NCBI GenBank assembly: GCA_016794545.1
Contig: JAEUJX010000611.1
Span: 1 to 37,274 of the forward strand
DNA from: Myxococcales bacterium
GTDB taxonomy: Bacteria > Myxococcota_A > Polyangia > Haliangiales > Haliangiaceae
Reading direction: 5' to 3'
DNA length: 37,274 nucleotides
The notes below the pieces were generated by a model. It did no database searches and had not been told where the DNA came from. It saw only the letters and a list, made by a program, of their open reading frames with translations. The position numbers and the translations under genes are program-made. This document shows positions 3-20,666 of this stretch, one piece after another (within the stretch, counting starts at the first letter, position 1; each line of letters begins with the position of its first letter).

Positions 3-881
3 TTCTTCGGCTCGCGCAACAACCTCATCAAGCCCGGCCCGTCGCTGTCGATGGCGGATGGCTGGGAGACCCGGCGGCGCCGCGGCCCGGGCCACGACTG
101 GGCCGAGATCAACCTGTGCGCGCGGGGCACCGTCGAGCGGCTCGTGGTGGACACGTCGCACTTCAAGGGCAACGCGCCCGCGCTGTGTACCGTCGACGGC
201 TCGACCGACGGGCGGCACTGGACGCGGCTCCTCTCGTCGTCGCTGCAGGCGCACACGGTGCACTCGTTCTCGTCGGAGCTGCGGCGCATCGGGCCGGTCT
301 CGCACCTCAAGGTGTCCGTGTACCCGTGCGGCGGCATCGCGCGGCTCCGCGCGTGGGGCACGCTCGCGCCGGCCGACGACCCGGCGCTCGCGCGGCTGAA
401 CGCGATGGGAGCCGACGAGCTCGGCGCGGCGCTGCGGCGCTGCTGCGGCTCGACGCGGTGGGGCGCGCTCCTCGCCGCGCAGCGGCCGTTCGAGAGCCGC
501 GAGGCGCTGCTGCGGATCGCCGAGCGCGTGTGGTGGTCGCTCGACGAGGCGGATCACCGCGAGGCGTTCGCGGCGCACCCGAAGATCGGCGAGACGAAGG
601 TCCCCGCGTCGGGCGACGCCGCGTGGTCGACGCACGAGCAGAAGGCCGCGGCCGACCTGGCGGCGCACACCGCCGCGCGGCTCGCCGACGCCAACCGCGC
701 GTACGAGCGCGAGCACGGCTTCATCTTCATCGTGTGCGCGACCGGCCGCAGTGCCGAGTCGATGGCCGCGGAGTGCGAGCAGCGCGCGAAGCGCGACACG
801 CGCGACGAGCTGCGCACGGCCGCCGAGGAGCAGATCAAGATCACGCGTCTGCGCCTCGCGAAGCTGCTGGGGGAGTCATGA
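3..881 (+). CDS. alc-uraD: Allantoicase (partial) fused to OHCU decarboxylase
   Basis: The 5' end lies outside the window; the frame is open from base 3. The first ~125 visible residues are the end of allantoicase (allantoate to ureidoglycolate plus urea), recognised by DGWETRRRRGPGHDW and VDTSHFKGN. The following ~165 residues form a complete 2-oxo-4-hydroxy-4-carboxy-5-ureidoimidazoline decarboxylase, with HPKIGE carrying the expected catalytic His, a THEQ segment, and GFIFIVCATGRS. OHCU decarboxylase makes S-allantoin from the product of HIU hydrolase, encoded next. The two fused activities are therefore not consecutive steps (allantoinase lies between them). The stop overlaps the next start as ATGA, so the genes are probably co-translated in the cytoplasm. 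Bifunctional proteins of this order are known in bacteria. Confidence 0.9.
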   Translation, partial: FFGSRNNLIKPGPSLSMADGWETRRRRGPGHDWAEINLCARGTVERLVVDTSHFKGNAPALCTVDGSTDGRHWTRLLSSSLQAHTVHSFSSELRRIGPVSHLKVSVYPCGGIARLRAWGTLAPADDPALARLNAMGADELGAALRRCCGSTRWGALLAAQRPFESREALLRIAERVWWSLDEADHREAFAAHPKIGETKVPASGDAAWSTHEQKAAADLAAHTAARLADANRAYEREHGFIFIVCATGRSAESMAAECEQRAKRDTRDELRTAAEEQIKITRLRLAKLLGES

Positions 882-1210
882 TCACGACGCACGTCCTCGA
901 CACGTCGCTCGGCAGGCCGGGCGCGAACATCGCGGTGGAGCTCGAGCGGGACGACCACGGCGTGTGGCACCTGATCGGGGGCGGCGTCACCGATGCCGAC
1001 GGCCGGTTACGCACGCTCACGCCGCAGGGCCCGGTGACGCCGGGTCGGTATCGAATCCGGTTCCAGACCGGAGCGTACTTCAGTGCCAGTAACGTCGCGG
1101 GGTTCTTCCCGCTCGTCGAGATCCAGTTCACCGTCGCCGACGCCGACGCCCACTACCACGTCCCGCTCTTGCTCTCGCCGTACGGCTACTCGACGTACCG
1201 GGGCAGCTGA
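878..1210 (+). CDS. uraH: 5-hydroxyisourate hydrolase (transthyretin-like)
   Basis: This 110-residue protein has the normal length for HIU hydrolase, which opens the ring of 5-hydroxyisourate formed by urate oxidation. It starts with THVLDTSLGRP (catalytic His near the N-terminus), has the Arg-containing YRIRF segment, and ends with YHVPLLLSPYGYSTYRGS, holding the second catalytic His and the diagnostic C-terminal YRGS tetrapeptide that separates HIU hydrolase from vertebrate transthyretin. The ATG overlaps the uraD stop by four bases. The pair catalyses consecutive steps, which supports one operon. No signal peptide is seen, so it is cytoplasmic. Confidence 0.95.
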   Translation: MITTHVLDTSLGRPGANIAVELERDDHGVWHLIGGGVTDADGRLRTLTPQGPVTPGRYRIRFQTGAYFSASNVAGFFPLVEIQFTVADADAHYHVPLLLSPYGYSTYRGS

Positions 1211-1224
1211 CCGCGAGCGCGTGA

Positions 1225-1230
1225 TACGGT
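1225..1230 (+). promoter_or_regulatory. Possible -10 element (TACGGT) before the DUF6986 gene
   Basis: TACGGT fits the loose TANNNT -10 pattern and ends 8 bases before ATG 1239. Transcription from it would give an almost leaderless message. It lies in the 28-base gap after uraH, so the gene may also be read from the upstream operon. Evidence is motif and position only. Confidence 0.25.
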
Positions 1231-1238
1231 CCGGGCCT

Positions 1239-2588
1239 ATGTCGGTCCGCACCACGCTCTCGGAGAAGAAGCTGTCCAAGACCCTCGATCGCGTCATGAA
1301 GGCGCAGAAGGAGGTCTACGAGCTGTACCCCGGAGACTCCGGCGCACGGCAGCCGGTGCACACCGTCTACGGCGGCGCGCACCTGTTCACGGCCGACACC
1401 GCGAAGAAGCTCGGCGACCTCGCGCTGCGCTCGCTCGACACCTACGCGCCCGACGCGGCGACGTTCGCGGAGGCGATCGGGCTCTCCGGCTCGCTCGGCC
1501 CCAAGGTCTACGAGCGCGTGAAGGACAAGCTCCGCCGCGAGGCGGTCGAGGACTTCCGCATCGACTTCGAGGACGGCTACGGCAACCGCCCCGACGAGGA
1601 GGAGGACGGCCACGCGGTCGCCGCCGCGCAGCAGGTCGCCGCGGGGCTCGAGGCGAGCAAGCTGCCGCCGTTCCTCGGCATCCGCATCAAGCCGCTGACG
1701 CGCGACCTGGCGGCGCGCTCGCTGCGCACGCTCGACATCTTCCTCACCGAGCTGCTCGCGAACACCAACAACCGGCTGCCCGACAACTTCGTCGTCACGC
1801 TGCCCAAGATCCAGAGCAAGACGGACGTCGAGGCCCTGGTCGAGACGTTCGAGCAGCTCGAGGATCGCCTCGACCTGCCGCACCGCACGCTCAAGGTCGA
1901 GTTCATGGTCGAGACGACGCAGTCGATCTTCGATCCGAGCGGCCGCGCCGCGCTGCCGCGCCTGCACCGCGCCGCCGACGGCCGCCTCACCGGCGCGCAC
2001 TTCGGGACGTACGACTACACCGCGAACTGCGACATCACCGCCGCGCACCAGCGGATGCGCCACCCGGCGTGCGACTTCGCGAAGCACGTGATGAAGGTGT
2101 CGTTCGCCGGCACCGGCGTGATGCTGTCTGACGGCGCGACGGTCATCATGCCGGTGCCCGTGCACAAGGGGCAGGACCTCACCGACCTCCAGAAGCGCGA
2201 CAACCGCAACGCGGTCCACGCCGCGTGGCGCCTCCACGCCGACGACGTTCGCCACTCGCTGGTCAACGGCTTCTACCAGGGCTGGGACCTCCACCCGGGC
2301 CAGCTGCCCACCCGCTACGGCGCGGTCTACGGGTTCTTCCTCGACGGCCTCGCTCCCGCCTCGGAGCGGCTCAAGAACTTCGTCGACAAGGCCGCGCAGG
2401 CCACGCTGGTCGGCGACGTGTTCGACGACGCGGCGACCGGGCAGGGCCTGCTCAACTACTTCCTGCGCGGCATCGCGTGCGGCGCGGTGACCGAGGACGA
2501 GGCCCTGGCGACCGGGCTCTCGCTCGAGGAGATCCGCTCGAAGTCGTTCGTGAAGATCATGGCGGCGCGCCGCGCGAAGCAGGCCTGA
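1239..2588 (+). CDS. DUF6986 / HpcH-HpaI aldolase (CitE-like) family protein
   Basis: A 449-residue protein resembling the DUF6986 family of CitE-like, HpcH/HpaI-aldolase-fold proteins also found in actinobacteria. Seen: TRQPVH-like ARQPVHTVYGGAH, the acidic DFRIDFEDGYG, IRIKPLT, VEFMVETTQ with a likely metal-binding Glu, HFGTYDYTANCDI, and YQGWDLHPGQLPTRY. ATG 1239 was chosen because it starts the conserved region; an open frame continues upstream through uraH. It follows uraH by 28 bases. Purine degradation releases glyoxylate, and relatives of this fold can condense glyoxylate with acyl-CoA or cleave citramalyl-CoA. A role in glyoxylate disposal is therefore reasonable but inferred, and the substrate is not known to me. 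Confidence 0.75.
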   Translation: MSVRTTLSEKKLSKTLDRVMKAQKEVYELYPGDSGARQPVHTVYGGAHLFTADTAKKLGDLALRSLDTYAPDAATFAEAIGLSGSLGPKVYERVKDKLRREAVEDFRIDFEDGYGNRPDEEEDGHAVAAAQQVAAGLEASKLPPFLGIRIKPLTRDLAARSLRTLDIFLTELLANTNNRLPDNFVVTLPKIQSKTDVEALVETFEQLEDRLDLPHRTLKVEFMVETTQSIFDPSGRAALPRLHRAADGRLTGAHFGTYDYTANCDITAAHQRMRHPACDFAKHVMKVSFAGTGVMLSDGATVIMPVPVHKGQDLTDLQKRDNRNAVHAAWRLHADDVRHSLVNGFYQGWDLHPGQLPTRYGAVYGFFLDGLAPASERLKNFVDKAAQATLVGDVFDDAATGQGLLNYFLRGIACGAVTEDEALATGLSLEEIRSKSFVKIMAARRAKQA

Positions 2589-6908: not shown

Positions 6909-6939
6909 GCCGAGCCGATCAGACCAGGGTCAGCTCGGC
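6909..6939. terminator. Inverted repeat between convergent genes
   Basis: GCCGAGC (6909-6915) and GCTCGGC (6933-6939) form a 7-base stem with a 17-base loop between the convergent LOR and SPFH genes, overlapping the last codons of the latter. There is no T-tract, so a bidirectional terminator role is only suggested by position. Confidence 0.3.
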
Positions 6940-7796
6940 GGAGGCTGCAGCATCGCGGCCTCGAGCGCGCGCATCTCGCCCGGCTCGAAGTCCTTGAACA
7001 CCACGGTCTGCTGCGGGCGCACCATCGAGAGGTCGTAGAGCTCCTTGTACGCGGCGAACACGGCCGGCTTGGGCTTCAAGGCAGCATACGCGCGGCCGAC
7101 GGCGGCGGGGTACTGCCCCTTGGACTCGCCGACCAGCTCCGCGATCCGGGCGCTGGTCTCGGCCTGGAGCATCGCCACGCGCTGCCGGCCGTGCTCCTCG
7201 AGATCCGCCTTCGCGCGCTCGAGCCGCGCGGCGACCGCGTGAAACAGCTGCTGGTTGACCTCCGGCAGCAGGCTGATGTTCTTGATGAACGCCAGCTCGA
7301 CCTTGATCCCCCAGCGCGCGGTCTCGGTGCCGATGTCCTTGCGCAGCATCTCGCCGAGCTCGGTGCGGTCGGCGAGGATCTCCTGGAACTCGCGATTGCC
7401 GAGGATCGAGATCACGGCGTGCGAGACCAGGTTCTTCAGCGCGTGGTGCCAGTCGGCGATCTCGAACGTCGCCTTCGCCGGGTCGACGACGCGAAACTCG
7501 AGCCAGACATCGACGACGACCGTGGTTCCACGGGAGTCGTTGATGCAGATGTTCGGGAAGTCGCAGAAGTCACTCTGCAGCGAGACGCGGTAGGTCTTCG
7601 TCCACGGTGCGACGCGATCGAACAGCCAGTGCCAGCCCGGCCGATCGAGGCGCGCGGCGAGCTTGCCGAACCGGGTGACGAGCACGGACTCGCCATCCTC
7701 GACCTCGACGCGGAACATCCGCAGCGCGAGGGCGGCGAACGGGATGATCGCGATACCGAGGAGGATTCCGAACACGAACAGGTTGGTGTCGCTCAC
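6930..7796 (-). CDS. SPFH/band-7 family membrane protein (second in pair)
   Basis: 288 residues. The N-terminal membrane segment is LFVFGILLGIAIIPFAALAL. It is followed by the band-7 start (VEDGESVLVTRFGKLAARLDRPGWHWLF), the RVSLQSDFCDF and VVVDVWLEFRVVDPAKATFEIADW strands, and a Glu/Ala/Arg-rich coiled-coil helix (AARLERAKADLEEHGRQRVAMLQAETSARIAELV). Starts at GTG 7796, overlapping the previous stop as GTGA. SPFH proteins form large membrane-bound oligomers that scaffold or regulate transporters and proteases. Two unequal SPFH genes in tandem suggest a hetero-oligomer, as for HflK/HflC, although no HflB-type protease is encoded here. Position after a bicarbonate-type transporter suggests it organises that transporter (inference). 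Confidence 0.88.
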   Translation of the reverse strand: MSDTNLFVFGILLGIAIIPFAALALRMFRVEVEDGESVLVTRFGKLAARLDRPGWHWLFDRVAPWTKTYRVSLQSDFCDFPNICINDSRGTTVVVDVWLEFRVVDPAKATFEIADWHHALKNLVSHAVISILGNREFQEILADRTELGEMLRKDIGTETARWGIKVELAFIKNISLLPEVNQQLFHAVAARLERAKADLEEHGRQRVAMLQAETSARIAELVGESKGQYPAAVGRAYAALKPKPAVFAAYKELYDLSMVRPQQTVVFKDFEPGEMRALEAAMLQPPPS

Positions 7797-8638
7797 GATG
7801 CACTCCGCATGTAGAGGGTCTTGGCCTGGGAGATGACTTCGGACCGGCGCCGCGCGATGTAGTCGGGGAGCGTGCCGTCTGCCTCGAGCTGCTCGAGGTA
7901 CGAGCCGAGCTTGGCGATCTCGCGCTCGACCGCGACGCCCTTGGCCTTCGCGATCTCGACGCCGCGCTCGGCCGCGACCACGCGTTGCTGAGACTCGGCC
8001 TCGGCGTGCGCGTACAGGCTCTCCGCCTCGGTCTGCGCGTTGATCACGGCGTTGAGCGCCTCGGCGAGCTCGTCGGGAGGCAGGATGTCGGTGAGGTCGA
8101 CCGCGTTGAACTGCACGCCGTAGCGCCGGCCGATCTGCGTGCGGCAGAAGTCCTCGATCCGCCGGTTGAGCACCCCGCGCGCGCGCCGGATCGCGGCGTA
8201 GGCGCCGCCGTCGTCCGTGCCGCCCTCGGGGCGAAAGTTCGCGATCTCGTTACGCAGGAGCGAGGTGAACAGACCGGTGATGTGCTCGTGCGGATTCTTC
8301 AGGTCGAACAGGAAGTGCTCGAGCTCGTCCTCCACGGGATGGAAGCGCAAGATCGAGTCGAACCGCAGGACCGTGCCGTCGTAGGCCATCGCGGTGCGAC
8401 CGCCCTCTTCGCCCGACAGCTCCAGGCTCTGCTCCATCATCGCGACGCGGTGGACGCGCTGCCACGGCCACTTGAAGTGGAGGCCGGGCTTGTAGGTGAC
8501 GAGCTTGCCGCGGGCCTTCTTCGCGGCCCCGAACGTGGTGAGCACGCCGAGGTAACCCTGCTCGATGCGAAAGCCGCAGCTCGCGAGCAGGTACACGCAG
8601 AAGGCGGCAGCTCCGACGATCATTCCGAGGAACAGCAT
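7793..8638 (-). CDS. SPFH/band-7 family membrane protein (first in pair)
   Basis: 281 residues with N-terminal membrane segment MLFLGMIVGAAAFCVYLLASCGF and then the SPFH domain: EQGYLGVLTTFGAAKKARGKLVTYKPGLHFKWPWQRVHRV, an FDSILRFHPVED strand, YGVQFNAVDLTDILPPDELAEALNAVINAQTEAES, and a coiled-coil Ala/Glu-rich helix (HAEAESQQRVVAAERGVEIAKAKG). ATG 8638 is preceded by AAGGAG at proper spacing, only 14 bases after the SulP-carbonic anhydrase stop, so the three genes form one operon. LASCG near residue 21 could pass for a lipobox, but a membrane-anchored SPFH protein is more likely. Confidence 0.88.
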   Translation of the reverse strand: MLFLGMIVGAAAFCVYLLASCGFRIEQGYLGVLTTFGAAKKARGKLVTYKPGLHFKWPWQRVHRVAMMEQSLELSGEEGGRTAMAYDGTVLRFDSILRFHPVEDELEHFLFDLKNPHEHITGLFTSLLRNEIANFRPEGGTDDGGAYAAIRRARGVLNRRIEDFCRTQIGRRYGVQFNAVDLTDILPPDELAEALNAVINAQTEAESLYAHAEAESQQRVVAAERGVEIAKAKGVAVEREIAKLGSYLEQLEADGTLPDYIARRRSEVISQAKTLYMRSAS

Positions 8639-8652
8639 GGGAGATCTCCTTT

Positions 8653-10734
8653 CTAGAACCGGTCGTGATCGAGGCTCGGCGCGTCCCAGCCGGCCTCGCG
8701 GGCGACGCGCGTGCGCGTCACCGTGGGTTTGTGGTGGTGGTTGCTCGAGCCGCCGTTGGTGTGCGTGTGGTGGTACGCCGCGGCGAGCCCGCGGTTGACC
8801 TCGACGACGTCGTCGTTGAAGTGCATGTGCGCCTCGCTCGCCGGCGGCAGGTCCTTCACCTTCGCGGGGCTGTCGATGATCATCCCGTGCGGCACGAACT
8901 TGCCGTCGGGGATCTCGACTCCGACCACGACGGCGCCGATGCCGATGAAGCAGCGCTCGCCGACCACCGAGTCGTGCACCACGGCCTTGAAGCCGATGAA
9001 CGTGCCGTCGCCGACGTAGCACGGGCCGTGAACGAGCGCGTCGTGTGCCATCGAGACGTTGCGCCCGACGTACACGGCCCACTCCTCTCCGCCGACCTGC
9101 ACGTAGCGATCCTTGAGCGCGTGGATCACCACACCGTCCTGGATGTTCGACGACGACCCGATGAAGAAGGGCGCGCCCTCGTCGGCGCGCACCGACGCGG
9201 ACGCGGCGACGTTGACGTGATCGCCGAGCACGACATCGCCGATCACGCTCGCCTTGTCGTGGATGAACGCCGACGGAGCGAGCCGCGCGCGCGCCTTGAG
9301 GTGTGCGATCCACTTCTGGCGCTCGTTCGAGATCGGCACCACGTGCGCCGGCCTGCGGGCGCCCGCCTTGTCCGTGTGCAGCACGGCGCGCACCACCCTC
9401 GGGTGATGCTGCCGGACGGTGTTGTGCTCGACCGCCGGCTGGGCGACCGGCACGCCGAGAGCCTCGACGATCTTCCACACGCCGAAGATCACGAGCGAGC
9501 TCAGCACGCCGGTGAGGAAGTCGGTGATGATCACCATCACCGCCGTGAAGATCATCAGCGCCGTGTGGCCGCGCCCCATGTGAAGCACCTCGGTCACCTC
9601 GGAGGGCTTGACCATGTTCGTGGCGACGAACAGGAGGATGCCGGCGATGCAGGCCGTCGGGACGAGCTCGAGGTAGCGCGCGAGGTAGTACGCGATCAGC
9701 AGTTTGAGCGCGAACTTGAACACTCCGGCGAGCGGCGAGATCGCGCCGAGCTTGATGTTGGTCGCCGTGCGCGCGAGCGCACCCGTGTGCGGGAACCCGT
9801 TGAGCAGCGGCACGAACGCCATCACCAGCGACTGGCCGAACAGCTCCTTGTTCGGGTTGTAGGGCAGCCCCTTGTTGTTCGCGAGCCGGTCCGCCATGCG
9901 CGAGCACAGCAGGCTCTCGATCGCCGCGACGAACACGATCGCGAGCGTGTAGTAGACGAGATCGCCCGCGTACTCGGCCGACAGGTAGTCGCCCGGAGGG
10001 GTCCACGCCCACGACTCCGCCGGGATCGAGCCGTACTTCTCGCCGATCAGGGTCAGGTTCTGCTGCCCGAGCAGCGTGTTGGCGAGCAGCGCTCCGATCC
10101 CCAGCGCGATCAGCGGCGCGGGGATGAAGGCCGTGATCTTGAGGACCCGCTTGACGAACAGGAACGTCCCGAGCGCCAGCACCAGCGCCCACACGTTGAA
10201 CTCGTCGATGTGCCGGCTGACGCCCTCGATCTTCTCGAAGAAGCCGTAGCCGAGCGCGGACTCGAGCCCGAGCAGCTCGCCCAGCTGCGACGCCGCGATC
10301 GTGAACGCGATGCCGAGCGTGAACCCGACGATGATCGAGTGCGGCACCAGCTTGACGATCCGACCCGCGCCCGCGAACGACATCAGCATCAGCACCGCGC
10401 CCGCGAGCAGTGCCACGAGCACGAGAAAGCCGTGGTCGTACTCGAGCATGATCGCGGCGATCACCGGGATGAATGCTGCGGTCGGGCCATAGACCTGGTA
10501 CTTCGAGCCGCCCCACAGCGCACCGATCACGCCTGCGACGGCGCCGCCGACGATGCCCTGCTCCGGTCGCAGCCCGGACGCCATCGCGAATCCCATCGCC
10601 AGCGGGATCGCGACCATCGCGACCACCAGCCCCGCCATGAAGTCCCGCATGACGTTGAGGACGGGATTGCCTTTGCGCAGATCCTCGTACCGCCCGTCGA
10701 ACGGGTTAATGAACAGCTTGAATGTTTTCCACAC
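8653..10734 (-). CDS. SulP anion transporter fused to gamma-class carbonic anhydrase
   Basis: 693 residues from GTG 10734. Residues ~25-425 are a SulP permease with about 10-12 hydrophobic segments: DFMAGLVVAMVAIPLAMGFAMASG, YQVYGPTAAF, and FGQSLVMAFVPLLNGFPHTGALARTATNIKLGA. The usual STAS domain is missing. After a ~55-residue linker comes a left-handed beta-helix carbonic anhydrase (~485-630) with the three zinc-ligand His in place: SNIQDGVVIHAL (H538) and MAHDALVHG (H564, H569), plus VRADEG (R516, E519). The tail is His-rich (HMHFND, YHHTHTNGG, NHHHK). The architecture predicts bicarbonate transport coupled to CO2 hydration at the inner membrane. GTG 10734 is preferred over GTG 10749 because GGAGG sits six bases upstream. 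Confidence 0.93.
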   Translation of the reverse strand: MWKTFKLFINPFDGRYEDLRKGNPVLNVMRDFMAGLVVAMVAIPLAMGFAMASGLRPEQGIVGGAVAGVIGALWGGSKYQVYGPTAAFIPVIAAIMLEYDHGFLVLVALLAGAVLMLMSFAGAGRIVKLVPHSIIVGFTLGIAFTIAASQLGELLGLESALGYGFFEKIEGVSRHIDEFNVWALVLALGTFLFVKRVLKITAFIPAPLIALGIGALLANTLLGQQNLTLIGEKYGSIPAESWAWTPPGDYLSAEYAGDLVYYTLAIVFVAAIESLLCSRMADRLANNKGLPYNPNKELFGQSLVMAFVPLLNGFPHTGALARTATNIKLGAISPLAGVFKFALKLLIAYYLARYLELVPTACIAGILLFVATNMVKPSEVTEVLHMGRGHTALMIFTAVMVIITDFLTGVLSSLVIFGVWKIVEALGVPVAQPAVEHNTVRQHHPRVVRAVLHTDKAGARRPAHVVPISNERQKWIAHLKARARLAPSAFIHDKASVIGDVVLGDHVNVAASASVRADEGAPFFIGSSSNIQDGVVIHALKDRYVQVGGEEWAVYVGRNVSMAHDALVHGPCYVGDGTFIGFKAVVHDSVVGERCFIGIGAVVVGVEIPDGKFVPHGMIIDSPAKVKDLPPASEAHMHFNDDVVEVNRGLAAAYHHTHTNGGSSNHHHKPTVTRTRVAREAGWDAPSLDHDRF

Positions 10735-10745: not shown

Positions 10746-10766
10746 GCACGCGCGCGAGGCGCGTGC
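10746..10766 (-). promoter_or_regulatory. GC-rich hairpin abutting the SulP ribosome binding site
   Basis: GCACGCGC (10746-10753) and GCGCGTGC (10759-10766) form an 8-base perfect stem with a 5-base loop. On the transcript it ends directly next to GGAGG. There is no T-tract. It could gate translation of the transporter or separate it from the upstream small gene. Confidence 0.4.
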
Positions 10767-12282: not shown

Positions 12283-13248
12283 TCAGCGCTTCGAGCGGCG
12301 CTGCAACGTGCGAACGCTGACCTTCAGGCGCTGCGCGGCGCGCGTCAGGTTGCCGTTCTCGGCCGCGATCGCGGCGTCGATCACGAGATCGAGGATCTCG
12401 GCGAGGGGTCGGTTGGTCGGCACCACGAGCGCGTCGCCGGCCGCGGTCTGATCGGCGCGGCCCTGCCGGATCGCCGGCGGCAGATCCTGCGGCCGCACCG
12501 GCTTTCCCTCGCGGAGAATGCAGAGCAGCTCGACGACGTTCCGGAGCTCGCGGACGTTGCCAGGCCAGTCGTACGCCATGAGCGCCGTGCGCGTGGACCG
12601 CACGAACACCGGCGGCGCGACGTCGTGGATCGCGGATAGCTGGGCGATGAAGGCGTCGAGCAGCTGGGGGATATCCCGGCGGCGGGCGCGGAGCGGCGGC
12701 ACCTCGAGCACGATGCCCTGGATCCGGTAGTAGAGGTCCGGGCGGAACCGGCCGGCGCGGACCTCCTGCTCGAGGGGGCGCAGCGTCGCGAGGACGAGGC
12801 GGACGTCGGCCTCGATCTTCTTCGCCCCGCCGACGCGCATGTAGCGGCGGGTCTCGAGGAACCGGAGCATCTTGGCCTGGAGCCCGAGCGGCATCTCGGC
12901 GATCTCGTCGAGAAACAGCGTGCCGCCGTTCGCGACCTCGATCTTGCCGGTCGAGCGCTCGTTCGCTCCGGTGTAAGCACCGCGCTCGTGGCCGAACAGC
13001 TCGCTCTCGAACAGCGCCTCGGGGATCGCCGCGCAGTTGATCGGCACGAACGGACCGCCGCGGCGCGGCGAGAGCTCGTGAAGGCGGCGCGCCATCACCT
13101 CCTTGCCGGAGCCGCTCTCGCCCGCGAACGTCACCGTCACCTCCTTCACCGCGACCGCCCGCAGGAAGCGGTCGAACGAGCGCATGACCGGCGACGACAT
13201 CGCCGGCTCCAGCACGACAGACGGGTTCGCGCGGAGGCGCTTCGGCAT
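12283..13248 (-). CDS. Sigma54-dependent activator, PspF-like, GAYTGA variant
   Basis: 321 residues. Almost the whole protein is the AAA+ enhancer-binding-protein core: Walker A GESGSGKE (43-50), GAYTGA loop (90-95, Tyr in place of Phe), Walker B GGTLFLDEIAEM (108-119), FRPDLYYRI (168-176), and WPGNVREL (228-235). A C-terminal Fis-type helix-turn-helix follows (NGNLTRAAQRLKVSVRTLQRR, ~298-318). Only ~20 residues precede the core, so it lacks its own sensor, as in PspF, and must be controlled by a partner or by expression. ATG 13248 is chosen; TAGACT eight bases upstream may be its -10. It is divergent from the Ehr operon, whose upstream region carries a sigma54 promoter and inverted repeats, making that operon the likely target. 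Confidence 0.9.
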   Translation of the reverse strand: MPKRLRANPSVVLEPAMSSPVMRSFDRFLRAVAVKEVTVTFAGESGSGKEVMARRLHELSPRRGGPFVPINCAAIPEALFESELFGHERGAYTGANERSTGKIEVANGGTLFLDEIAEMPLGLQAKMLRFLETRRYMRVGGAKKIEADVRLVLATLRPLEQEVRAGRFRPDLYYRIQGIVLEVPPLRARRRDIPQLLDAFIAQLSAIHDVAPPVFVRSTRTALMAYDWPGNVRELRNVVELLCILREGKPVRPQDLPPAIRQGRADQTAAGDALVVPTNRPLAEILDLVIDAAIAAENGNLTRAAQRLKVSVRTLQRRSKR

Positions 13249-13256
13249 GCGGGTGC

Positions 13257-13262
13257 AGTCTA
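13257..13262 (-). promoter_or_regulatory. Possible -10 element TAGACT of the activator gene
   Basis: On the minus strand TAGACT (TANNNT type) ends eight bases before ATG 13248, consistent with a nearly leaderless housekeeping promoter for the activator. Confidence 0.3.
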
Positions 13263-13390
13263 CGCGAACCGGGCGGGCACGCATGCGAGTGGGGTGACCG
13301 CGCGGCGTCCGCGTGTCGGGATCCGGGGCCCTCGACCGTGTTCCTGCCTCCGGGATGACGGTACCCCTGCGGTGGCTGGCGCTTCCGCTA

Positions 13391-13403
13391 CGACAACCTG
13401 TCG
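13391..13403. promoter_or_regulatory. Activator site CGACA-N3-TGTCG before the Ehr operon
   Basis: Perfect arms around ACC, identical to the two sites before the methyltransferase at 11356. It is centred ~105 bases upstream of the -12 element of the sigma54 promoter. A degenerate second copy (CGTCC-N3-TGTCG) may lie at 13306-13318. Confidence 0.6.
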
Positions 13404-13429
13404 CACGCCGGTCGCCCGCATCCCGAGGT

Positions 13430-13449
13430 CATTCCGAACACCTGGAATG
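13430..13449. promoter_or_regulatory. Inverted repeat CATTCC-N8-GGAATG
   Basis: Six-base perfect arms, 38 bases upstream of the sigma54 -24 element in the activator/Ehr intergenic region. It could be a second regulator site or an IHF-zone structure. I did not find a full copy at the methyltransferase promoter, only an ATTCC half at 11305. Confidence 0.4.
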
Positions 13450-13487
13450 CACCGGCGCCATCCCGCGCGAGCGCGACGCCGGCGCCG

Positions 13488-13503
13488 TGGCGCACTGCTT
13501 GCA
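13488..13503 (+). promoter_or_regulatory. Sigma54 promoter of the Ehr operon
   Basis: TGGCGCACTGCTTGCA matches the consensus TGGCAC-N5-TTGCA with one mismatch; GG and GC are exactly 10 bases apart. The -12 C is 13502, giving a start near 13514, only ~6 bases before ATG 13520, so the message is nearly leaderless. The divergent gene encodes a sigma54 activator. Confidence 0.75.
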
Positions 13504-13519
13504 CTTTCGGCCGGCACCG

Positions 13520-15508
13520 ATGGTCGCCTCCGGTCTGTTCCTGGCGAGCGTGCCCGTGCTCCTGATCGGAGCGGCACTCGCGGCGGGCTTGCGTGGCAAC
13601 CGGGCGCGCGGGCTGGCCGCACTCGGCTCGCAGGCGATCGCGATCGTGCTCGTCAGCCTGAGCGTCGTTCCGATCCTCGCGGGCGACGGCAGCCTCGAGG
13701 TCACCTGGTCGTGGCCCTCGCCGATCGACAGCATCGCGTTCCGCGTGGATGCGCTCGGCGCGTTCTTCCTCGTGTGGTCGCTGCCGATGACGTTCCTCGG
13801 CACGCTGTACTCGGTGGGCTACCTGCAGCCGTATTTCCACCACGGCCGCAACGGAGGCCCGCACTTCGCGCTGCTCAACCTGACCTCGCTGTCGTTCGTG
13901 CTGATCTACGCGGTCCAGAACGCGCTCGTGTTCCTGCTCGGCTGGGAGATCGCGGCGGTCGCGGCGTGGCTGATGGTCATCTGGGACTACCGCAATCAGA
14001 AGATCCGCTTCGCCGGCTTCAACTACCTCGTGTCGACGCACGTCGGGCTGTTCGTGCTCGTCGCCGCGTTCATGCTGCTTCACGGCTCGACAGGCTCGAT
14101 GGACTTCGCCGACTTCGGCCGCTACCTGTCCGCGCACCCCGCCGGGCAGGGCACGCTGTTCCTCCTCCTCGGCATCTCGTTCGCGCTCAAGTCCGCGTTC
14201 TTCCCGTTCCACACCTGGCTACCGCGCGCGCACTCCGCCGCGCCGGCCCACGTCTCCGCGCTGATGTCCGGCGTCATCCACAAGGCCGGTCTGTTCGCGT
14301 TCCTGCGCTTCACGCTGCTCGGCGGGAAGCCCGAACCCTGGATGGGCTGGGCGGTGCTGACGTTCGGTGCCCTGTCCGCCGTGTTCGGCGTGCTCTACAC
14401 CGCCGCGCAGCGCGACCTCAAGCGCATGCTCGGCTACTCGTCGACGGAGAACGTCGGCATCGCCGCGATGGGGTTCGGCATCGGGATGCTCGGCTGGTCG
14501 TGGTCGGATCCGGCGCTCGCGACGCTCGGGTTCGGCGGCGGCCTGCTGCACGTCCTGAATCACGCGCTGTTCAAGTGCTCGCTGTTCTACGCCGCGGGCG
14601 CGATCTACCGCGCGACGCACACGATCGATCTCGAGCGGCTCGGCGGGCTCGCGCGCCGGATGCCGAGGACGGCGATCTTCTTCCTGCTCGGTGGCCTCGC
14701 CATGTGCGGGTTGCCTCCGTTCAACGGCTTCATCAGCGAGTTCCTCGTCTACTCGGGCCTGCTGTCGGGCGCGGCGCCGAGCATCGAAGGCGACGTCGTG
14801 CTCGTGTGCGCGGCGGCGGTCCTCGCCTTCGTCGGCGCGGTCGGGGCGCTGTCGACGACGCGAGCGTTCGGGCTCGCCTTCCTCGGCGTGCCTCGGGATC
14901 CGTCGATCCGCGCCGGCGAGGACGCGCCCCGCTCGATGGCGGTCCCGATGGTCGTGCACAGCGTGGGCATCATCGTCCTCGGGGTGTTCCCGACGGCCGC
15001 GCTCGCCCTCGTCGAGCCCGTGCTCGCGCTGTTCCCGGTCGGTGGCGGCGCCGCCCACGGACCCGAGCTCGCCGACGTGCTCGGGCCGGTGGTGTGGGCG
15101 TGCCGCGGCCTCGCGTGTGCGCTCGCGATCGCGATGTTCGCGACGTGGCGGCGCCGCCGGAGCGCTCGCGAGAGCGTGACGTGGGGCTGCGGCTACACCG
15201 CGGGGACCGCGCGCATGCAGTACACCGGCAGCTCGTTCTCGGCGCAGCTCTCGTCGCTGTTCCGGCCGGCGCTGCCGGTGTTGACGCGCGAGGAGCTCCC
15301 GACCGATCCGTTCCCGCAGCACTCCTCGCACCTGTCCACGCACCACGTGGATGCCGTCGAGAAGCGCATGTACGAGGTGATCGGGCAGGGCGAGCAGTTC
15401 GTGCAGGACGCCTCGTCGCGGATCCCCGAGCAGCCGCGCTTCGCCTTCGCCGCGGGTCTGCTGGCGCTCGTCGTGCTGGCGCTCGTCGCTCTCCGGGAGG
15501 GTCTGTGA
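13520..15508 (+). CDS. hyfB: HyfB/HycC-like antiporter-type subunit of an Ehr complex
   Basis: 662 residues, about 15 hydrophobic segments, related to hydrogenase-4 component B and to the NuoL-type proton-pumping subunits. Seen: VFLLGWEIAAVAAWLMV with a membrane Glu, FALKSAFFPFHTWLPRAHSAAPAHVSALMSGVIHKAGLFAFLR (pump-channel Lys and His), and AAQRDLKRMLGYSSTENVGIAAMGFG, the STEN form typical of HyfB rather than NuoL. A soluble loop and one final membrane helix follow. ATG 13520 agrees with the sigma54 start site; the frame is open further upstream but runs through the promoter. First gene of an operon whose members overlap by 1-4 bases. Confidence 0.9.
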   Translation: MVASGLFLASVPVLLIGAALAAGLRGNRARGLAALGSQAIAIVLVSLSVVPILAGDGSLEVTWSWPSPIDSIAFRVDALGAFFLVWSLPMTFLGTLYSVGYLQPYFHHGRNGGPHFALLNLTSLSFVLIYAVQNALVFLLGWEIAAVAAWLMVIWDYRNQKIRFAGFNYLVSTHVGLFVLVAAFMLLHGSTGSMDFADFGRYLSAHPAGQGTLFLLLGISFALKSAFFPFHTWLPRAHSAAPAHVSALMSGVIHKAGLFAFLRFTLLGGKPEPWMGWAVLTFGALSAVFGVLYTAAQRDLKRMLGYSSTENVGIAAMGFGIGMLGWSWSDPALATLGFGGGLLHVLNHALFKCSLFYAAGAIYRATHTIDLERLGGLARRMPRTAIFFLLGGLAMCGLPPFNGFISEFLVYSGLLSGAAPSIEGDVVLVCAAAVLAFVGAVGALSTTRAFGLAFLGVPRDPSIRAGEDAPRSMAVPMVVHSVGIIVLGVFPTAALALVEPVLALFPVGGGAAHGPELADVLGPVVWACRGLACALAIAMFATWRRRRSARESVTWGCGYTAGTARMQYTGSSFSAQLSSLFRPALPVLTREELPTDPFPQHSSHLSTHHVDAVEKRMYEVIGQGEQFVQDASSRIPEQPRFAFAAGLLALVVLALVALREGL

Positions 15509-16422
15509 CGAGCGCCATCGCGAACATCCTCGCGCTGCTCGTGATGCCGATCGTCGTGACCGGCACGATCAACCGCGTCAAGGCGCGGTGGGCCGGACGC
15601 GTCGGGCCGCCGATCTTCCAGCTCGCGTTCGATCTGTGGCGGCTCGTTCGCAAGACGCCGGTCTACAGCAAGGTCACCACGCCCGTGTTCCGCGTCGGGC
15701 CCGCGATCGTCCTCGTCACCTCGGTCGCGTCCGCGTGCATCGTGCCGCTCGCCGGAACGGGGTCGCTCGTCGCGTTCTCGTTCGACTTCGTCTGGTTCGC
15801 CTACGTGTGGTCGTTCGGGCGGGTCGCGCTGATGCTGGGAGCGCTCGACACCGGGAGCTCGTTCGAGGGCATGGGGGCCTCGCGCGAGGCGACGTTCGCG
15901 ACGCTGCTCGAGCCCGTGCTGTTCCTCGTGGCGGGTGCGCTCTGTCTCCACGGCGGCGTCCGCAGCTTCGAGGCCGCGCTCGTCCCTCACCTCGATGGCC
16001 CCTCCGCCGTCGTCATGTGGCTCTGTGCGATCGGCGCGCTGATGATCGTCATCCAGGTCGAGGCCGCGCGCATGCCGGTCGACGACCCGACCACGCACCT
16101 CGAGCTCACGATGGTCCACGAGGTGATGATCCTCGATCACGGCGGGCCCGAGCTCGCGATGCTGCAGGCCGCGTCCGCGATCAAGACGTTCGTCGCGATC
16201 TCGGTGGCCGCGACGCTGCTCGATCCGCTCGCGGGCGAGTCGTCGATCCTCGCGATCGGAGCCCACCTCGGCATCTGCCTCGCGATCGCGATCGGGCTCG
16301 GGATGATCGAGTCCCTCGTGGCGCGCCTCAAGCTGCGCATCGTGCCGCAGTACATCGTGGTCGCCCTGGTCTCGGCGGGGATCGCGCTGCTGTCGACGCT
16401 GGGCCGCGGAGGCTTCTCGTGA
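15505..16422 (+). CDS. hyfC: HyfC/NuoH-like membrane subunit
   Basis: 305 residues, eight or so membrane helices. GTINRVKARWAGRVGPPIFQLAFDLWRLVRKTPVYSK is the conserved quinone/connector loop of HyfC and HycD (compare NuoH). GSSFEGMGASREATFATLLEPVL and ARMPVDDPTTHLELTMVHEVMILDHGGPELAM carry the acidic residues that form the E-channel between the soluble module and the pump. GTG 15505 overlaps the hyfB stop as GTGA. It anchors the HyfG/HyfI soluble arm to the membrane. Confidence 0.92.
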   Translation: MTSAIANILALLVMPIVVTGTINRVKARWAGRVGPPIFQLAFDLWRLVRKTPVYSKVTTPVFRVGPAIVLVTSVASACIVPLAGTGSLVAFSFDFVWFAYVWSFGRVALMLGALDTGSSFEGMGASREATFATLLEPVLFLVAGALCLHGGVRSFEAALVPHLDGPSAVVMWLCAIGALMIVIQVEAARMPVDDPTTHLELTMVHEVMILDHGGPELAMLQAASAIKTFVAISVAATLLDPLAGESSILAIGAHLGICLAIAIGLGMIESLVARLKLRIVPQYIVVALVSAGIALLSTLGRGGFS

Positions 16423-17039
16423 ACCCGATCCTGATCGCGTTCGTGGGCGTCCTGATGCTGCCGCAGTTCGTCGCGTCGTGGCGGCTCACCCTGTTCAGCC
16501 TCTCCCTGCAGGGCCTGCTGATGGCGTGGATCAGCTACGACCTCCACACCTCGCTCGACTCCGTCGGCGCCTGGATCCAGATGTTCGATCTGGCGATCGT
16601 CCGCGGCCTCGCGGCGCCGATCGCGCTCTACGCGGTGCTGCGCGGCCAGCGGGCGAGCGCGCGCCACGACGTCATCCCGCCCAACCTGATGTCGTGGACG
16701 CTGGTGCTGGTGCTCGTGCTCGTCGCGTTTCGCTTCGCGGACATGCTCCTGCCCGCCGGCGGCCCGGACCACTCGTTCGTGGCCGCCGCCTGTGCCGGCG
16801 TCCTGCTCGGCGTCCTCGTGCTGTCGACGCAGACCGGACCGTTCAGCCAGATGGCCGGCGCCCTGGGGATCGAGAACGGGATCGCGATGTTCGAGCTGCG
16901 CGGCCACCACGACCCGGCGATGCAGATCGCGCAGACGCTGATCCTCGTCGCGACGATCCTGCTGTTCCGGTGGTACCTGAAGACCCTGCCTCGCGCCAGC
17001 GCGGTGAAGGTCAGCGCCGTCGAAGGGATGCACCCGTGA
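16419..17039 (+). CDS. hyfE: HyfE-like membrane subunit
   Basis: 206 residues, six to seven hydrophobic segments, in the position and size range of hydrogenase-4 component E, whose C-terminal part resembles NuoK. The ending GPFSQMAGALGIENGIAMFELRGHHDPAMQIAQTLILVATILLFRWYLKTL includes the membrane Glu of IENG expected in a NuoK-like helix. It starts at GTG 16419, overlapping the previous stop by four bases. HyfE is absent from the simplest group-4 hydrogenases, so its presence places this complex in the Hyf/Ehr type. Confidence 0.85.
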   Translation: MNPILIAFVGVLMLPQFVASWRLTLFSLSLQGLLMAWISYDLHTSLDSVGAWIQMFDLAIVRGLAAPIALYAVLRGQRASARHDVIPPNLMSWTLVLVLVLVAFRFADMLLPAGGPDHSFVAAACAGVLLGVLVLSTQTGPFSQMAGALGIENGIAMFELRGHHDPAMQIAQTLILVATILLFRWYLKTLPRASAVKVSAVEGMHP

Positions 17040-18457
17040 CCTGGCTCCTCCTCGTCGGCATCCCCGTCGTGAGCGCGCTCGCCGTGTGGATGACGCCCGC
17101 GGGTGCCCGCGCCTCGACGGTCCTCCTCGTGACCGCCTCGATGACGTCGATCGTCGCGGTGGTCCACGCCGCGCTGCCGACCGAGCCGCCGTTCCTCGGG
17201 GGCTATGTCCGCGGCGACGCGACCGTGCAGCTGTTCGCGCCGGTCATCAATGTCATCTTCGCGGGGATCGCGGTCTACGTGCGCGCGCGTGTCGCGATCG
17301 AGCCGGCGTCGCGGCGGTTCGTGTTTCTCGCGCTCGGCTTCCTTGCCGCGTCGAACCTCGCGCTCCTTGGCAATCACCTCCTGCTGATGTGGATCGGGCT
17401 CGAGGCGACCACGCTCGCGGCGGCGCTGCTGATCGTTCGCGCGGACGTGCCGTCCTCGCGGCTCGCGTCGTGGCGCTACCTCCTGTTCTCGTCGGTCGGG
17501 CTCGGCCTGGTGCTGCTCGGGCTGTCGTGCCTGACGCGCAGCATGGAGATGTCGGGCCACGCGGGGACGCTGTTCCTCGACGAGATGCCCGCCGCGGTCG
17601 CGGGGCCCGCGGATGGCTGGCGCCAGCTCGGCGTGGCCTTGACGCTGCTCGGGCTCGGCACGAAGCTCGGGCTCGCGCCGATGTACAGCTGGCTGCCGGA
17701 GGCCTACGACGAGGCACCGGCGCCGGTGACCGCGATGCTCGGGGCCGTGCAGTTCAACGTGGCGCTCGTGCTGCTCCTGCGCGTGCTCCACGTCTACCGC
17801 GCCGGCAGCGGAGACCTGATCGCCGGCCAGCTCCTGACGATCGGGCTCGCCTCGATCGCGGTCTCGACGGCCAGCATCGTCGCGACCCGCAACGTCAAGC
17901 GGCTCCTGGCCTACGCCTCGATCAACCACGCCGGCGTCATCGCGATCGGGCTGGGCCTGGGCCACTCGGCGTCGTTCGGGGTGCTGCTCTACGTGCTCAG
18001 CAACGCCTTCATCAAGGCGATCCTGTTCCTCACCGCCGGCAAGATCGAGGCGCACTACGGGACGAAAGACACGAAGTCGATCGCCGGGCTCATCAAGGAT
18101 CTGCCGTTCAGCGGCGTGTTCCTCATGGTCGGCACCTTCGCGCTGCTCGGGTTCCCGCCGTTCGGCAGCTTCCTCGGCGAGCTGCTGATCCTGTCGGCGC
18201 TCGTGAGCAGCGGGCAGATGTTCGTGTTCGCCGGCTTCTGCATGCTGATCACGGTCTCGTTCGTCGCGACGGGCCGCACGATCTTCCCGATGATCTGGGG
18301 CGAGCCGAAGCAGGTGAGGACCTGGCCGCGCCAGCGGCTCGGCGGCGCGCTGCACAAGCTGATCTTCCTCGTGCTGCTGCTCGTCCTCGGCATCTACATC
18401 CCGCCGCAGCTGAACGTGCTCATGAACGAGGTCGCTCACACGCTGGAGGGGCCGTGA
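17036..18457 (+). CDS. hyfF: HyfF-like antiporter-type subunit
   Basis: 473 residues, about 14 membrane helices, NuoN/NuoM-like pump fold. Seen: LLLMWIGLEATTLAAALLI with the conserved Glu, GTKLGLAPMYSWLPEAYDEAPAPVTAMLGAVQFNVALVLLLR (channel Lys, Trp-Leu-Pro motif), ATRNVKRLLAYASINHAGVIAIGLGLG, and a C-terminal helix after KLIFLVLLLVLGIYIP. GTG 17036 overlaps the hyfE stop. The operon therefore encodes two pump-type subunits (HyfB and HyfF), implying ion translocation coupled to a soluble redox module. Confidence 0.9.
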   Translation: MTWLLLVGIPVVSALAVWMTPAGARASTVLLVTASMTSIVAVVHAALPTEPPFLGGYVRGDATVQLFAPVINVIFAGIAVYVRARVAIEPASRRFVFLALGFLAASNLALLGNHLLLMWIGLEATTLAAALLIVRADVPSSRLASWRYLLFSSVGLGLVLLGLSCLTRSMEMSGHAGTLFLDEMPAAVAGPADGWRQLGVALTLLGLGTKLGLAPMYSWLPEAYDEAPAPVTAMLGAVQFNVALVLLLRVLHVYRAGSGDLIAGQLLTIGLASIAVSTASIVATRNVKRLLAYASINHAGVIAIGLGLGHSASFGVLLYVLSNAFIKAILFLTAGKIEAHYGTKDTKSIAGLIKDLPFSGVFLMVGTFALLGFPPFGSFLGELLILSALVSSGQMFVFAGFCMLITVSFVATGRTIFPMIWGEPKQVRTWPRQRLGGALHKLIFLVLLLVLGIYIPPQLNVLMNEVAHTLEGP

Positions 18458-19917
18458 GCTCCGTCCTCGCGCGGGCGATCCCGGTGGGAGAGATCGAGGT
18501 GCTGGCGATCGATGCGTGGCGCGCGCAGCTCCTCGCGCGTGCGCAGGCGCGAGCACGGCCGGTGATCGTCTATGGCCGGCGCGATGCGGCGCGCGTCGTC
18601 CTGACCGCCGTGCACCAGGACGGCGCGGGGCTGGTCGCCGCGCGGACCTCGGTCGATCCGGCGACCGGCTACCACGAGCTGACGTCGAGCCTGCCCGCGC
18701 TCCACTGCTTCGAGCGCGAGCTGCACGAACAGCTCGGGGTCCGCGTCGCCGGGCATCCCTGGCTCAAGCCGGTGCGCTTCGAGGGCAGGGACCAGGCCGC
18801 GATGGGCTCGTATCCGTTCTATCGCGTCGACGGCAAGGAGGTGCACGAGGTCGCGGTCGGCCCGATCCACGCCGGCGTGATCGAGCCGGGCTCGTTCCGC
18901 TTCATGTGCTTCGGCGAGCACGTGCTGCACCTCGAGATCCACCTCGGCTACCAGCACCGCGGGGTCGAGGCGCGGCTCCTGCAGCGCGACCCGCGCGCGC
19001 TCGCGCCATGGGCCGAGACCATCGCCGGGGACACCACGATCGGACACGCGTGGGCCTACGCGGCCGCCCTCGAAGCTCTCGCGGGCCACGAGGTCGCCCC
19101 CGAGCACGAGCTCGCGCGCGCGGTGATGCTCGAGCTGGAGCGCGTCGCGATGCACCTCGCCGGCCTCGCCGGCCTGGCGGCCGACGTCGGCTTCCTCCCC
19201 GGCGCCGCGACGTACGGCCGCCTGCGGACGACCGCGATCAACAGCTCGATGCGGCTGTGCGGCAGCCGGTTCGGGCGCGGCGCGGTCCGGCCGTGCGGCA
19301 GCGGCGTCACGCTCGATGACGAGCTGCGCGAGCTCCTGCGCGCGAACGTGCAGCTGCTCCGCCGCGATGGCGCGATCATCGATGACTCGTTCGAGCACGC
19401 GCGGTCGGTGCGCCACCGCCTCGCCGGCGTCGGGGTGGTGTCGGCGGACCTGGCGATGCAGCTCGGTCTCGTCGGGATGGCGGCCCGCAGCGCCGGCGTG
19501 GCGATCGACACGCGGATGCCCGCCCACGGGCTGTACGAACACCACCCGATCGCGCTGTGCACCGAGACCGGCGGCGACTGCTGGGCGCGCGCGCAGCTGC
19601 GGATCTCCGAGATCCGCGCCTCGCTCGACTGGCTCGATCGCGTGCTCGCGGAGCGGCCCACCTGGCGGCCCGCGCGGGATCCGGTGCCGGCACTCGCGCC
19701 CTCGCGGCTCGCGATCGCGGTCGTGGAAGGGTGGCGCGGCGAGGTCGTCCACTGCCTCGAGACGGGCGAGGACGGCGCACTGGTGCACTACAAGGCGCAG
19801 GACCCGTCGCTGCGCAACTGGATGGGCCTCGCGCTCGCCGTGCGCGGCAACGACATCTCCGACTTTCCGATCTGCAACAAGAGCTTCGATCTCTCCTACT
19901 GCGGGAACGACCTGTGA
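18454..19917 (+). CDS. hyfG: HyfG/NuoCD-like large subunit without NiFe ligands (Ehr)
   Basis: 487 residues. Residues ~1-130 resemble the NuoC-like 30-kDa domain; the rest is the NuoD/hydrogenase-large-subunit fold (HLEIHLGYQHRGVEARL, LELERVAMHLAGLAGLAADVGF, FPICNKSFDLSYCGNDL). In NiFe hydrogenases two CxxC pairs hold the metal. Here the N-terminal pair position reads ETIAGDTTIGHAWAY (~188-202), with no Cys. The C-terminus has a lone C473 in FPIC and C483, not a CxxC. The protein is therefore very unlikely to bind NiFe and belongs with energy-converting-hydrogenase-related (Ehr) large subunits, whose reaction is unknown. GTG 18454 overlaps the hyfF stop. No hydrogenase maturation gene or C-terminal processing signal is seen. 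Confidence 0.88.
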   Translation: MSSVLARAIPVGEIEVLAIDAWRAQLLARAQARARPVIVYGRRDAARVVLTAVHQDGAGLVAARTSVDPATGYHELTSSLPALHCFERELHEQLGVRVAGHPWLKPVRFEGRDQAAMGSYPFYRVDGKEVHEVAVGPIHAGVIEPGSFRFMCFGEHVLHLEIHLGYQHRGVEARLLQRDPRALAPWAETIAGDTTIGHAWAYAAALEALAGHEVAPEHELARAVMLELERVAMHLAGLAGLAADVGFLPGAATYGRLRTTAINSSMRLCGSRFGRGAVRPCGSGVTLDDELRELLRANVQLLRRDGAIIDDSFEHARSVRHRLAGVGVVSADLAMQLGLVGMAARSAGVAIDTRMPAHGLYEHHPIALCTETGGDCWARAQLRISEIRASLDWLDRVLAERPTWRPARDPVPALAPSRLAIAVVEGWRGEVVHCLETGEDGALVHYKAQDPSLRNWMGLALAVRGNDISDFPICNKSFDLSYCGNDL

Positions 19918-20666
19918 TGTTCAAGTCGCTACGTGTCCGGCTCTCCCAGGGCAAGCAGTTCATCCCCGACGTGCGCGCGGCCAAGCCGGCCGGCTTTCGC
20001 GGCATGCCCCGGATCGGGCCGGCGCCGTGCGCGGCCGGGTGTGACGCGTGCGTCGCCGTCTGCCCGACGGCGGCCATCCGCACGGACCCGCTGTCGATCG
20101 ACCTCGGACGGTGCGTGTTCTGCAACGAGTGCGTGTCGGCGTGCCCCGAGGCCAAGCTCGAGCTGACCCCCGAGCCGCGGATGGGCGCGGCGTCGCGGGC
20201 GGATCTCGCCGTGGGGCCCGGCGCGGAGGAGCGCATTCGCATCCGGGCGAACGAGGGTCTCGCGAGACTGTTCGGCCGTTCGCTCAAGCTGCGCCAGGTG
20301 TCCGCGGGTGGCTGCAACGGCTGCGAGCTGGAGCTCAACGCCACCGCGAACGTCAACTTCGATCTCCAGCGCTTCGGGATCGAGTGGGTCGCGTCGCCGC
20401 GGCACGCGGATGCGCTCGTGCTCTCGGGCGCGCTCACCCGCACGATGAAGGACGCCGTGCGCCTCGCCTGGGAGGCGATGCCCGAGCCGCGCTTCGTCAT
20501 CGCGGTGGGCGCCTGCGCGATCTCCGGAGGACTCTACGAGGGAGCCTCCGGCGTCGAGCGCACGTTCCTCGACGAGGTGATCCCGGTCCTGTACGTGCCG
20601 GGGTGCCCACCGCACCCGCTCACGTTCGTGAACGCGGTCCTCGATCTGCTCGGAGTGGCCGAGTGA
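19917..20666 (+). CDS. hyfI: Ferredoxin-HyfI fusion: small subunit of the Ehr complex
   Basis: 249 residues combining two usually separate subunits. Residues ~35-80 hold two [4Fe-4S] ferredoxin motifs: CAAGCDACVAVCP (C38, C42, C45, C49, first spacing one longer than usual) and the classic CVFCNECVSACP (C66, C69, C72, C76). Residues ~120-249 are the NuoB/HyfI small subunit with the ligands of the proximal cluster: GGCNGCE (C133, C136), GACAISGG (C200), PGCPPHP (C230). In Hyf and Nuo the ferredoxin part is a separate HyfH/NuoI protein. Electrons should thus run from an outside donor through the 2x[4Fe-4S] domain to the N2-like cluster near the large-subunit cavity. ATG 19917 overlaps the hyfG stop as TGATG. 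Confidence 0.92.
   Translation: MFKSLRVRLSQGKQFIPDVRAAKPAGFRGMPRIGPAPCAAGCDACVAVCPTAAIRTDPLSIDLGRCVFCNECVSACPEAKLELTPEPRMGAASRADLAVGPGAEERIRIRANEGLARLFGRSLKLRQVSAGGCNGCELELNATANVNFDLQRFGIEWVASPRHADALVLSGALTRTMKDAVRLAWEAMPEPRFVIAVGACAISGGLYEGASGVERTFLDEVIPVLYVPGCPPHPLTFVNAVLDLLGVAE

Follow-up and report, generated by a model that had tools for sequence, protein, structure and literature searches.

The operon and its parts

Positions 6930-10734 of the window, as we call the whole 37,274-nucleotide stretch of Myxococcales DNA that was analysed, are filled by three tightly packed genes on the minus strand, which encode a SulP transporter fused to a gamma-class carbonic anhydrase (CA) and two proteins of the SPFH family, SPFH1 and SPFH2. 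The fusion is an uninterrupted open reading frame (ORF) with its stop at 8653 and possible starts at 10749, which gives the longest reading, or at a GTG at 10734. The GTG is the likelier start, having a GGAGG just upstream; residue numbers of the fusion refer to the 698-amino-acid reading from 10749. SPFH1 starts 14 bases past the fusion stop, and the start of SPFH2 overlaps the stop of SPFH1 by 4 bases (GTGA). An earlier note on this DNA had described a SulP protein fused to a gamma-class CA and starting at the same GTG, and had placed the two SPFH genes in one operon with it on the basis of this gap and overlap; the single ORF with PF00916 and a gamma-CA domain, the GGAGG, and the Band_7/SPFH assignment of both downstream proteins are all in agreement with that description. 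A scan for sigma-70 promoters gave no signal above chance. The parts of the operon are listed here, the transporter types being described further below.

8653-10734, minus strand: SulP-gamma-CA fusion gene, a single ORF with PF00916 and gamma-CA, GGAGG 5' of the GTG; the fusion is conserved
9490-10647, minus strand: SulP membrane domain of type W without a STAS domain, residues 35-420; PF00916, fold of BicA (6ki1) and SLC26Dg, clusters with standalone STAS-less SulPs
9307-9396, minus strand: linker with the conserved motif VVRAVLHTDKAGARRPAH...KWI, common to both transporter types and marking the start of the exchanged module
8764-9297, minus strand: gamma-CA domain, residues 485-662, with zinc ligands H543, H569 and H574
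8656-8694, minus strand: conserved C-terminal tag AGWDAPSLDHDRF at the end of a tail predicted to be disordered (predicted local distance difference test, pLDDT, < 50)
7793-8638, minus strand: SPFH1 gene, 281 amino acids, PF01145 with E 2e-21, strong Shine-Dalgarno sequence AAAGGAG
6930-7796, minus strand: SPFH2 gene, 288 amino acids, GTG start, PF01145 with E 1e-23

The fusion protein

The SulP half matches PF00916 (Sulfate_transp) over residues 35-400 (E 5e-56, 190 bits against a cut-off of 23). An AlphaFold model of the fusion (mean pLDDT 85.5) consists of a helical SulP domain, a CA beta-helix and two low-confidence stretches, the linker at residues 441-474 and the tail at residues 667-698, both of which are predicted to be disordered. 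In Foldseek searches the first half of the model, which has the SLC26/UraA fold, matches SULTR4;1, BicA and SLC26Dg. The CA follows directly on the SulP domain, with no STAS domain in the protein; such a C-terminal domain is usual though not universal among SulPs. The earlier note had seen in this the replacement of STAS by the CA, an explanation that we rejected for this type of SulP, since the closest relatives of the SulP half are proteins of about 450 amino acids from which STAS is already absent. Next to standalone SulPs of type W, on their upstream side, there is often a beta-CA gene (PF00484 in L005, L009, L013 and L014), and weaker matches lie near the SulP in L008, L090 and L096. A beta-CA gene beside sulP, as in the can2-sulP pair of Acidithiobacillus, has served as the basis for inferring bicarbonate transport, with pH control also proposed (PMC6458275). 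From the fusion to a CA and from the beta-CA neighbours of its relatives, bicarbonate would be the most likely substrate of the fusion. At a further locus (L015, 4047-7829) a type-W SulP is broken between query residues 293 and 285 by about 1.4 kb, its C-terminal half being fused to a universal-stress-like protein.

The CA domain belongs to the Cam/CcmM branch of the gamma-CAs. Its best NCBIfam matches are CcmM (188.9 bits) and the Cam-type carb_anhyd (175.6 bits), both scores lying below the full-length cut-offs, as expected for a single domain, and its best match in the PDB is 3kwc, an active CcmM (E 2e-48). In the model it forms a left-handed beta-helix with a C-terminal helix, which fits Cam (1qre) and CcmM (3kwc) with a root-mean-square deviation of about 1 Å and 45-46% identity in the Foldseek structural alignment. 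The three zinc-binding histidines recognised in the earlier note, H543, H569 and H574, are invariant in all 43 homologous fusion CAs, and the catalytic residues R521, D523, Q537 and D538 are likewise identical in 43 of 43. The 10-residue acidic loop of Cam, with its proton-shuttle Glu, is absent from the fusion CAs, as it is from CcmM, and the fusion protein contains no RbcS-like repeats. The metal site of gamma-CAs lies between neighbouring subunits, so that an active fusion CA implies a trimer. Four further residues, H592, D593, G603 and G605 (window ~8935-8976, minus strand), are invariant or nearly so among the 43 fusion CAs and differ in CcmM and dGCA1; they form a signature of this CA subfamily, perhaps with a role in proton transfer or in contact with partner proteins.

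Linkage of the three genes

SPFH1 and then SPFH2 lie directly downstream of the fusion, on the same strand, in all 38 Myxococcota loci where the fusion is complete and the contig extends far enough, the gaps ranging from -1 to 91 bases between the fusion and SPFH1 and from -4 to 18 bases between SPFH1 and SPFH2. The earlier note had named a lack of such co-occurrence in relatives as a refutation of its proposal, and the proposal withstood this check at all 38 loci. No other neighbour recurs across the fusion loci, a protease gene included, and there is no FtsH or NfeD gene at the locus. When 310 genomes were searched with a profile of SPFH1, the matches at E <= 1e-73 were at fusion loci with two exceptions, and the next matches were generic paralogues at 1e-45. 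One exception (G260) has SPFH1 at a contig edge with SPFH2 present. The other is a relic (G261, contig C64, L135 6585-7455) in which SPFH1 is without its N-terminus, SPFH2 has an internal gap and there is no fusion; as no SulP-CA gene of any kind accompanies it, the module seems to have been lost as a unit.

The fusion query matched 41 of 318 genomes of the same class, nearly all of the matches being fusions, and fusions are also present in a second class of Myxococcota and in a named Archangium metagenome-assembled genome. A second copy of the whole unit was found in the organism's own genome (contig C384), with a transporter half 29% identical to that of the window and a CA about 62% identical. 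Since it recurs in dozens of genomes, the three-gene unit is not the product of chance or of an assembly artefact. Samples of four other phyla, Acidobacteriota (297), Planctomycetota (216), Cyanobacteriota/Melainabacteria (194) and Bacteroidota (198), yielded no fusion at E 1e-60 with the same query, which did match in Myxococcota.

Exchange of the transporter half

By comparing the transporter halves we found that the fusions contain two types of SulP, about 29% identical to one another: type W, that of the window, in seven fusions and type C in 35. In a tree of the transmembrane (TM) halves type W groups with standalone STAS-less SulPs of many phyla and type C forms a clade of its own. Treating all W fusions as one group was rejected for the TM half (approximately unbiased, AU, p 1e-69) as well as for the SPFH pair (p 5e-82), and the CA and SPFH trees set W modules among C modules, with weak support in the CA tree. 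With one of the W fusions (G254W) left out, the SPFH tree no longer rejects one common origin of the W modules (p 0.26). In G254 the TM half tracks the standalone SulP of its genus, with 50-100% identity in blocks of 20 residues, as far as about residue 440 of the aligned protein; beyond about residue 460 the linker and CA track the type-C module of the same genus. The tests on the TM and SPFH trees, together with this breakpoint, indicate that the transporter half has been swapped at least twice while the linker, CA, tag, SPFH1 and SPFH2 stayed joined.

A conserved C-terminal tag

The tail behind the CA varies in length and sequence, and its very end is conserved as W...[DE]RF-COOH. The last residue is Phe in 38 of 40 fusions, 30 of the 40 ending in Arg-Phe; once near-duplicates are removed, the terminal Phe is found in 27 of 28 fusions, with both transporter types represented, and Arg at -2 in 23 of these 28. 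Trp is common at -10 and -14. W and C fusions alike carry the tag, so that it is part of the module rather than of the transporter, and the terminal Phe is absent from all of the SPFH1 and SPFH2 proteins neighbouring the fusions. The most divergent SPFH pairs occur in the clade whose tails are variant (LKP[LF]), which fits a role of the tag in docking, though the evidence is weak because the CA of this clade is divergent too. The tail in the window is His-rich, as had been noted earlier, but the number of His residues ranges from 0 to 11 among homologues, and a functional His-rich tail was therefore rejected; it is the end of the tail that is conserved instead. As for the terminal Phe, a role as a signal for outer-membrane barrels was rejected, since the enzyme ahead of the tail is cytosolic and the transporter that carries it sits in the inner membrane.

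The SPFH proteins and their topology

Both SPFH proteins carry PF01145 (Band_7). The model of SPFH1 (pLDDT 89.4) has one N-terminal helix (residues 2-20), the SPFH domains and a coiled-coil helix of 65 residues, and in fold it comes nearest to HflC/HflK, prohibitin, stomatin and QmcA. In profile comparisons of sequence SPFH1 is closest to HflC, and SPFH2 to QmcA and stomatin. That the two are the housekeeping HflK/C pair was rejected, since the NCBIfam equivalog scores for HflK/HflC are only 25 and 38 bits against cut-offs of 134-159 and the same genome has other SPFH genes. There are six more of these, on contigs C235, C269 and C589 (L118, L117 and L119), and at least two of the three groups are adjacent pairs.

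In 41 of 41 SPFH1 proteins the stretch ahead of the membrane helix is free of Lys and Arg, and one or more of these residues stand shortly behind the helix; the same bias is seen in 28 of 38 SPFH2 proteins and the opposite in none. Both SPFH bodies are predicted from this, by the positive-inside rule, to face the cytoplasm. The C-terminus of SulP is cytoplasmic, as is established for SLC26/SulP proteins, so that the CA and the SPFH bodies would share a compartment. The body of QmcA is also cytoplasmic, whereas those of HflK/C are not (PMC10434171).

Genomic surroundings

No RuBisCO large subunit was found in the organism's own genome, which is about 97% complete; the earlier description of the organism as a probable heterotroph stands, and a link to a carboxysome or to the Calvin cycle was rejected. 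At 13313-20666 of the window (plus strand) lies a cluster resembling hydrogenase-4/formate hydrogenlyase, with membrane subunits similar to HyfB, NuoH and HyfF, a large subunit that resembles NuoC/D and has no CxxC nickel motif, and a protein similar to NuoB/ferredoxin. The cluster has the look of a hydrogenase-related, energy-converting complex that lacks a NiFe site. This hydrogenase-4/complex-I-like cluster (13.3-20.7 kb) was considered as a partner and rejected, as it is not conserved at the other fusion loci. Between it and the SulP-CA operon is a regulator of the sigma-54 activator type (12283-13284, minus strand). Near the start of the window (116-2588, plus strand), a 364-amino-acid frame ending in a hydroxyisourate hydrolase domain is followed by a DUF6986 malate-synthase-like protein, the two probably forming a purine-breakdown cluster.

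A proposed transporter-enzyme assembly

We propose, at roughly even confidence, that the operon encodes a metabolon of bicarbonate transporter and CA, which a dedicated hetero-SPFH dome would corral and the tag would dock there. The anatomy of the fusion, its intact active site, the gene linkage, the exchange of transporter halves and the conservation of the tag are observed, whereas substrate, trimer, dome, docking and direction of flux are inferred. The SulP would carry inorganic carbon, most likely bicarbonate, over the inner membrane, and the gamma-CA tethered to its cytoplasmic C-terminus would interconvert HCO3- and CO2 at the inner mouth of the transporter. The active fusion would be a trimer with three transporters, around which SPFH1 and SPFH2, probably alternating, would build a dome on the cytoplasmic side. 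The C-terminal W...RF tag would recruit the fusion to the dome or hold it there, and bicarbonate-CO2 exchange would in this way be confined in space at the membrane. Where the structure of an SPFH paralogue pair is known, the two proteins alternate within a dome (PMC12624060). AQP1 and UT-B are corralled by domes of stomatin, a role for which 'membrane encapsulin' has served as a term (PMC12407830), and stomatin binds AE1 and raises its bicarbonate exchange (PMC5383999). The 'microdomain' of the earlier note may accordingly be sharpened to a cytoplasmic dome of alternating SPFH1 and SPFH2 with tag docking. More tentatively, such a dome with trimeric SulP-gamma-CA as its sole cargo, caught via W...[DE]RF-COOH, would amount to a bacterial bicarbonate membrane encapsulin. 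As RuBisCO was not found, the assembly probably serves to supply carboxylases or to control pH, and the direction of flux, whether uptake for carboxylases or movement for pH control, is a guess.

Some observations weigh against the proposal. Genetic linkage by itself is no proof of enclosure, and the topology signal of SPFH2 is the weaker one, with ties in 10 of 38 proteins. In addition, the positions that we take to form the Na+ site of BicA are altered in the fusion, Asp to Glu and Thr to Cys, so that Na+ coupling of the BicA kind is not supported.

It is possible, if on balance unlikely, that the SPFH partners of the transporter-CA metabolon form no enclosing dome and act as loose lipid-domain scaffolds or as HflK/C-like quality-control factors for the fusion. 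Bacterial SPFH proteins have been tied both to FtsH control and to microdomains, and the profile of SPFH1 points towards HflC, but the equivalog scores of the pair fall far short of those for HflK/HflC, its predicted topology is the opposite one, no protease gene recurs across the fusion loci, and the pair is dedicated, being confined to one client. We consider it rather improbable that the flux is reversed, with the CA hydrating respiratory CO2 and the SulP exporting or exchanging bicarbonate for pH control or CO2 disposal. The SulP/SLC26 proteins include exchangers, and a heterotroph in which RuBisCO was not found would be a fitting host; this explanation differs from the proposed one in direction only. 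For the can2-sulP pair of Acidithiobacillus, too, pH control has been put forward (PMC6458275). There is little to recommend a gamma-CA domain that is mainly a trimerising scaffold, on a transporter that moves another anion and is tuned by the SPFH proteins, for although proteins of this fold can serve as scaffolds and the Cam acidic loop with its Glu is missing, none of the seven metal and catalytic residues is lost in any of the 43 fusion CAs, the nearest match is an active CcmM, the same CA module is joined to two unrelated SulP types and the type-W relatives pair with beta-CA genes.

Relation to known systems

STAS-less SulPs joined to or standing beside a CA, with predicted bicarbonate transport, are known from SulP-beta-CA fusions (Felce and Saier, 2004; Mycobacterium Rv3273) and from can2-sulP pairs (PMC6458275). 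Their CAs are of the beta class, whereas that of the operon is of the gamma class, which has an unrelated fold and forms trimers, and the conserved linker, the C-terminal tag and the two dedicated SPFH genes are features of the loci described here. With the N-terminal gamma-CA of CcmM and with Cam the fusion shares fold, metal and catalytic residues, and with CcmM the short loop; it differs in that the CA is membrane-tethered to a transporter, with no RbcS-like repeats, carboxysome or RuBisCO, and in residues specific to and invariant in the fusion CAs, such as H592, G603 and G605.

The stomatin dome with AQP1/UT-B and the stomatin-AE1-CA system of red cells (PMC12407830, PMC5383999) offer a functional analogy, in that SPFH bodies on the cytoplasmic side stand beside an SLC-type anion transporter and a CA. 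In the bacterial case two paralogues would take the place of a homo-oligomer around the putative client, which is a fusion with its own CA and shares an operon with the SPFH genes. HflK/HflC, QmcA-YbbJ and other bacterial SPFH proteins have in common with SPFH1 and SPFH2 the N-terminal TM helix, the SPFH domains and a long coiled coil, HflK/C being paired paralogues also and QmcA having the same predicted topology; the pair described here differs in its one dedicated transporter-enzyme client, in the lack of an FtsH or NfeD gene at the locus and in scores below the NCBIfam cut-offs for HflK/C. Among open-licence papers we found none that describes a SulP-gamma-CA fusion, and none on SPFH proteins devoted as a pair to a bicarbonate transporter. 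SulP fusions with beta-CAs and SPFH domes around red-cell transporters were known already; what seems to be new is the fusion to a gamma-CA and its dedicated SPFH pair.

For most bacterial SPFH proteins it is unclear what they do and which clients they have, the main structural case being that of HflK/C with FtsH. Here the genetics points to a single, near-obligate client and to a candidate docking tag, which makes recognition of cargo by cage directly testable, and the different transporters plugged into the same enzyme-cage module would provide a natural experiment. If the proposal is correct, the operon would encode an assembly for handling CO2 and bicarbonate outside carboxysomes and autotrophs, one that recurs in Myxococcota with large genomes. 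It would be a compartment for inorganic carbon, made of protein and placed on the membrane, in which the transporter has been exchanged in evolution while enzyme, tag and cage were kept, and a bacterial counterpart of the band 3/CA/stomatin set of red cells.

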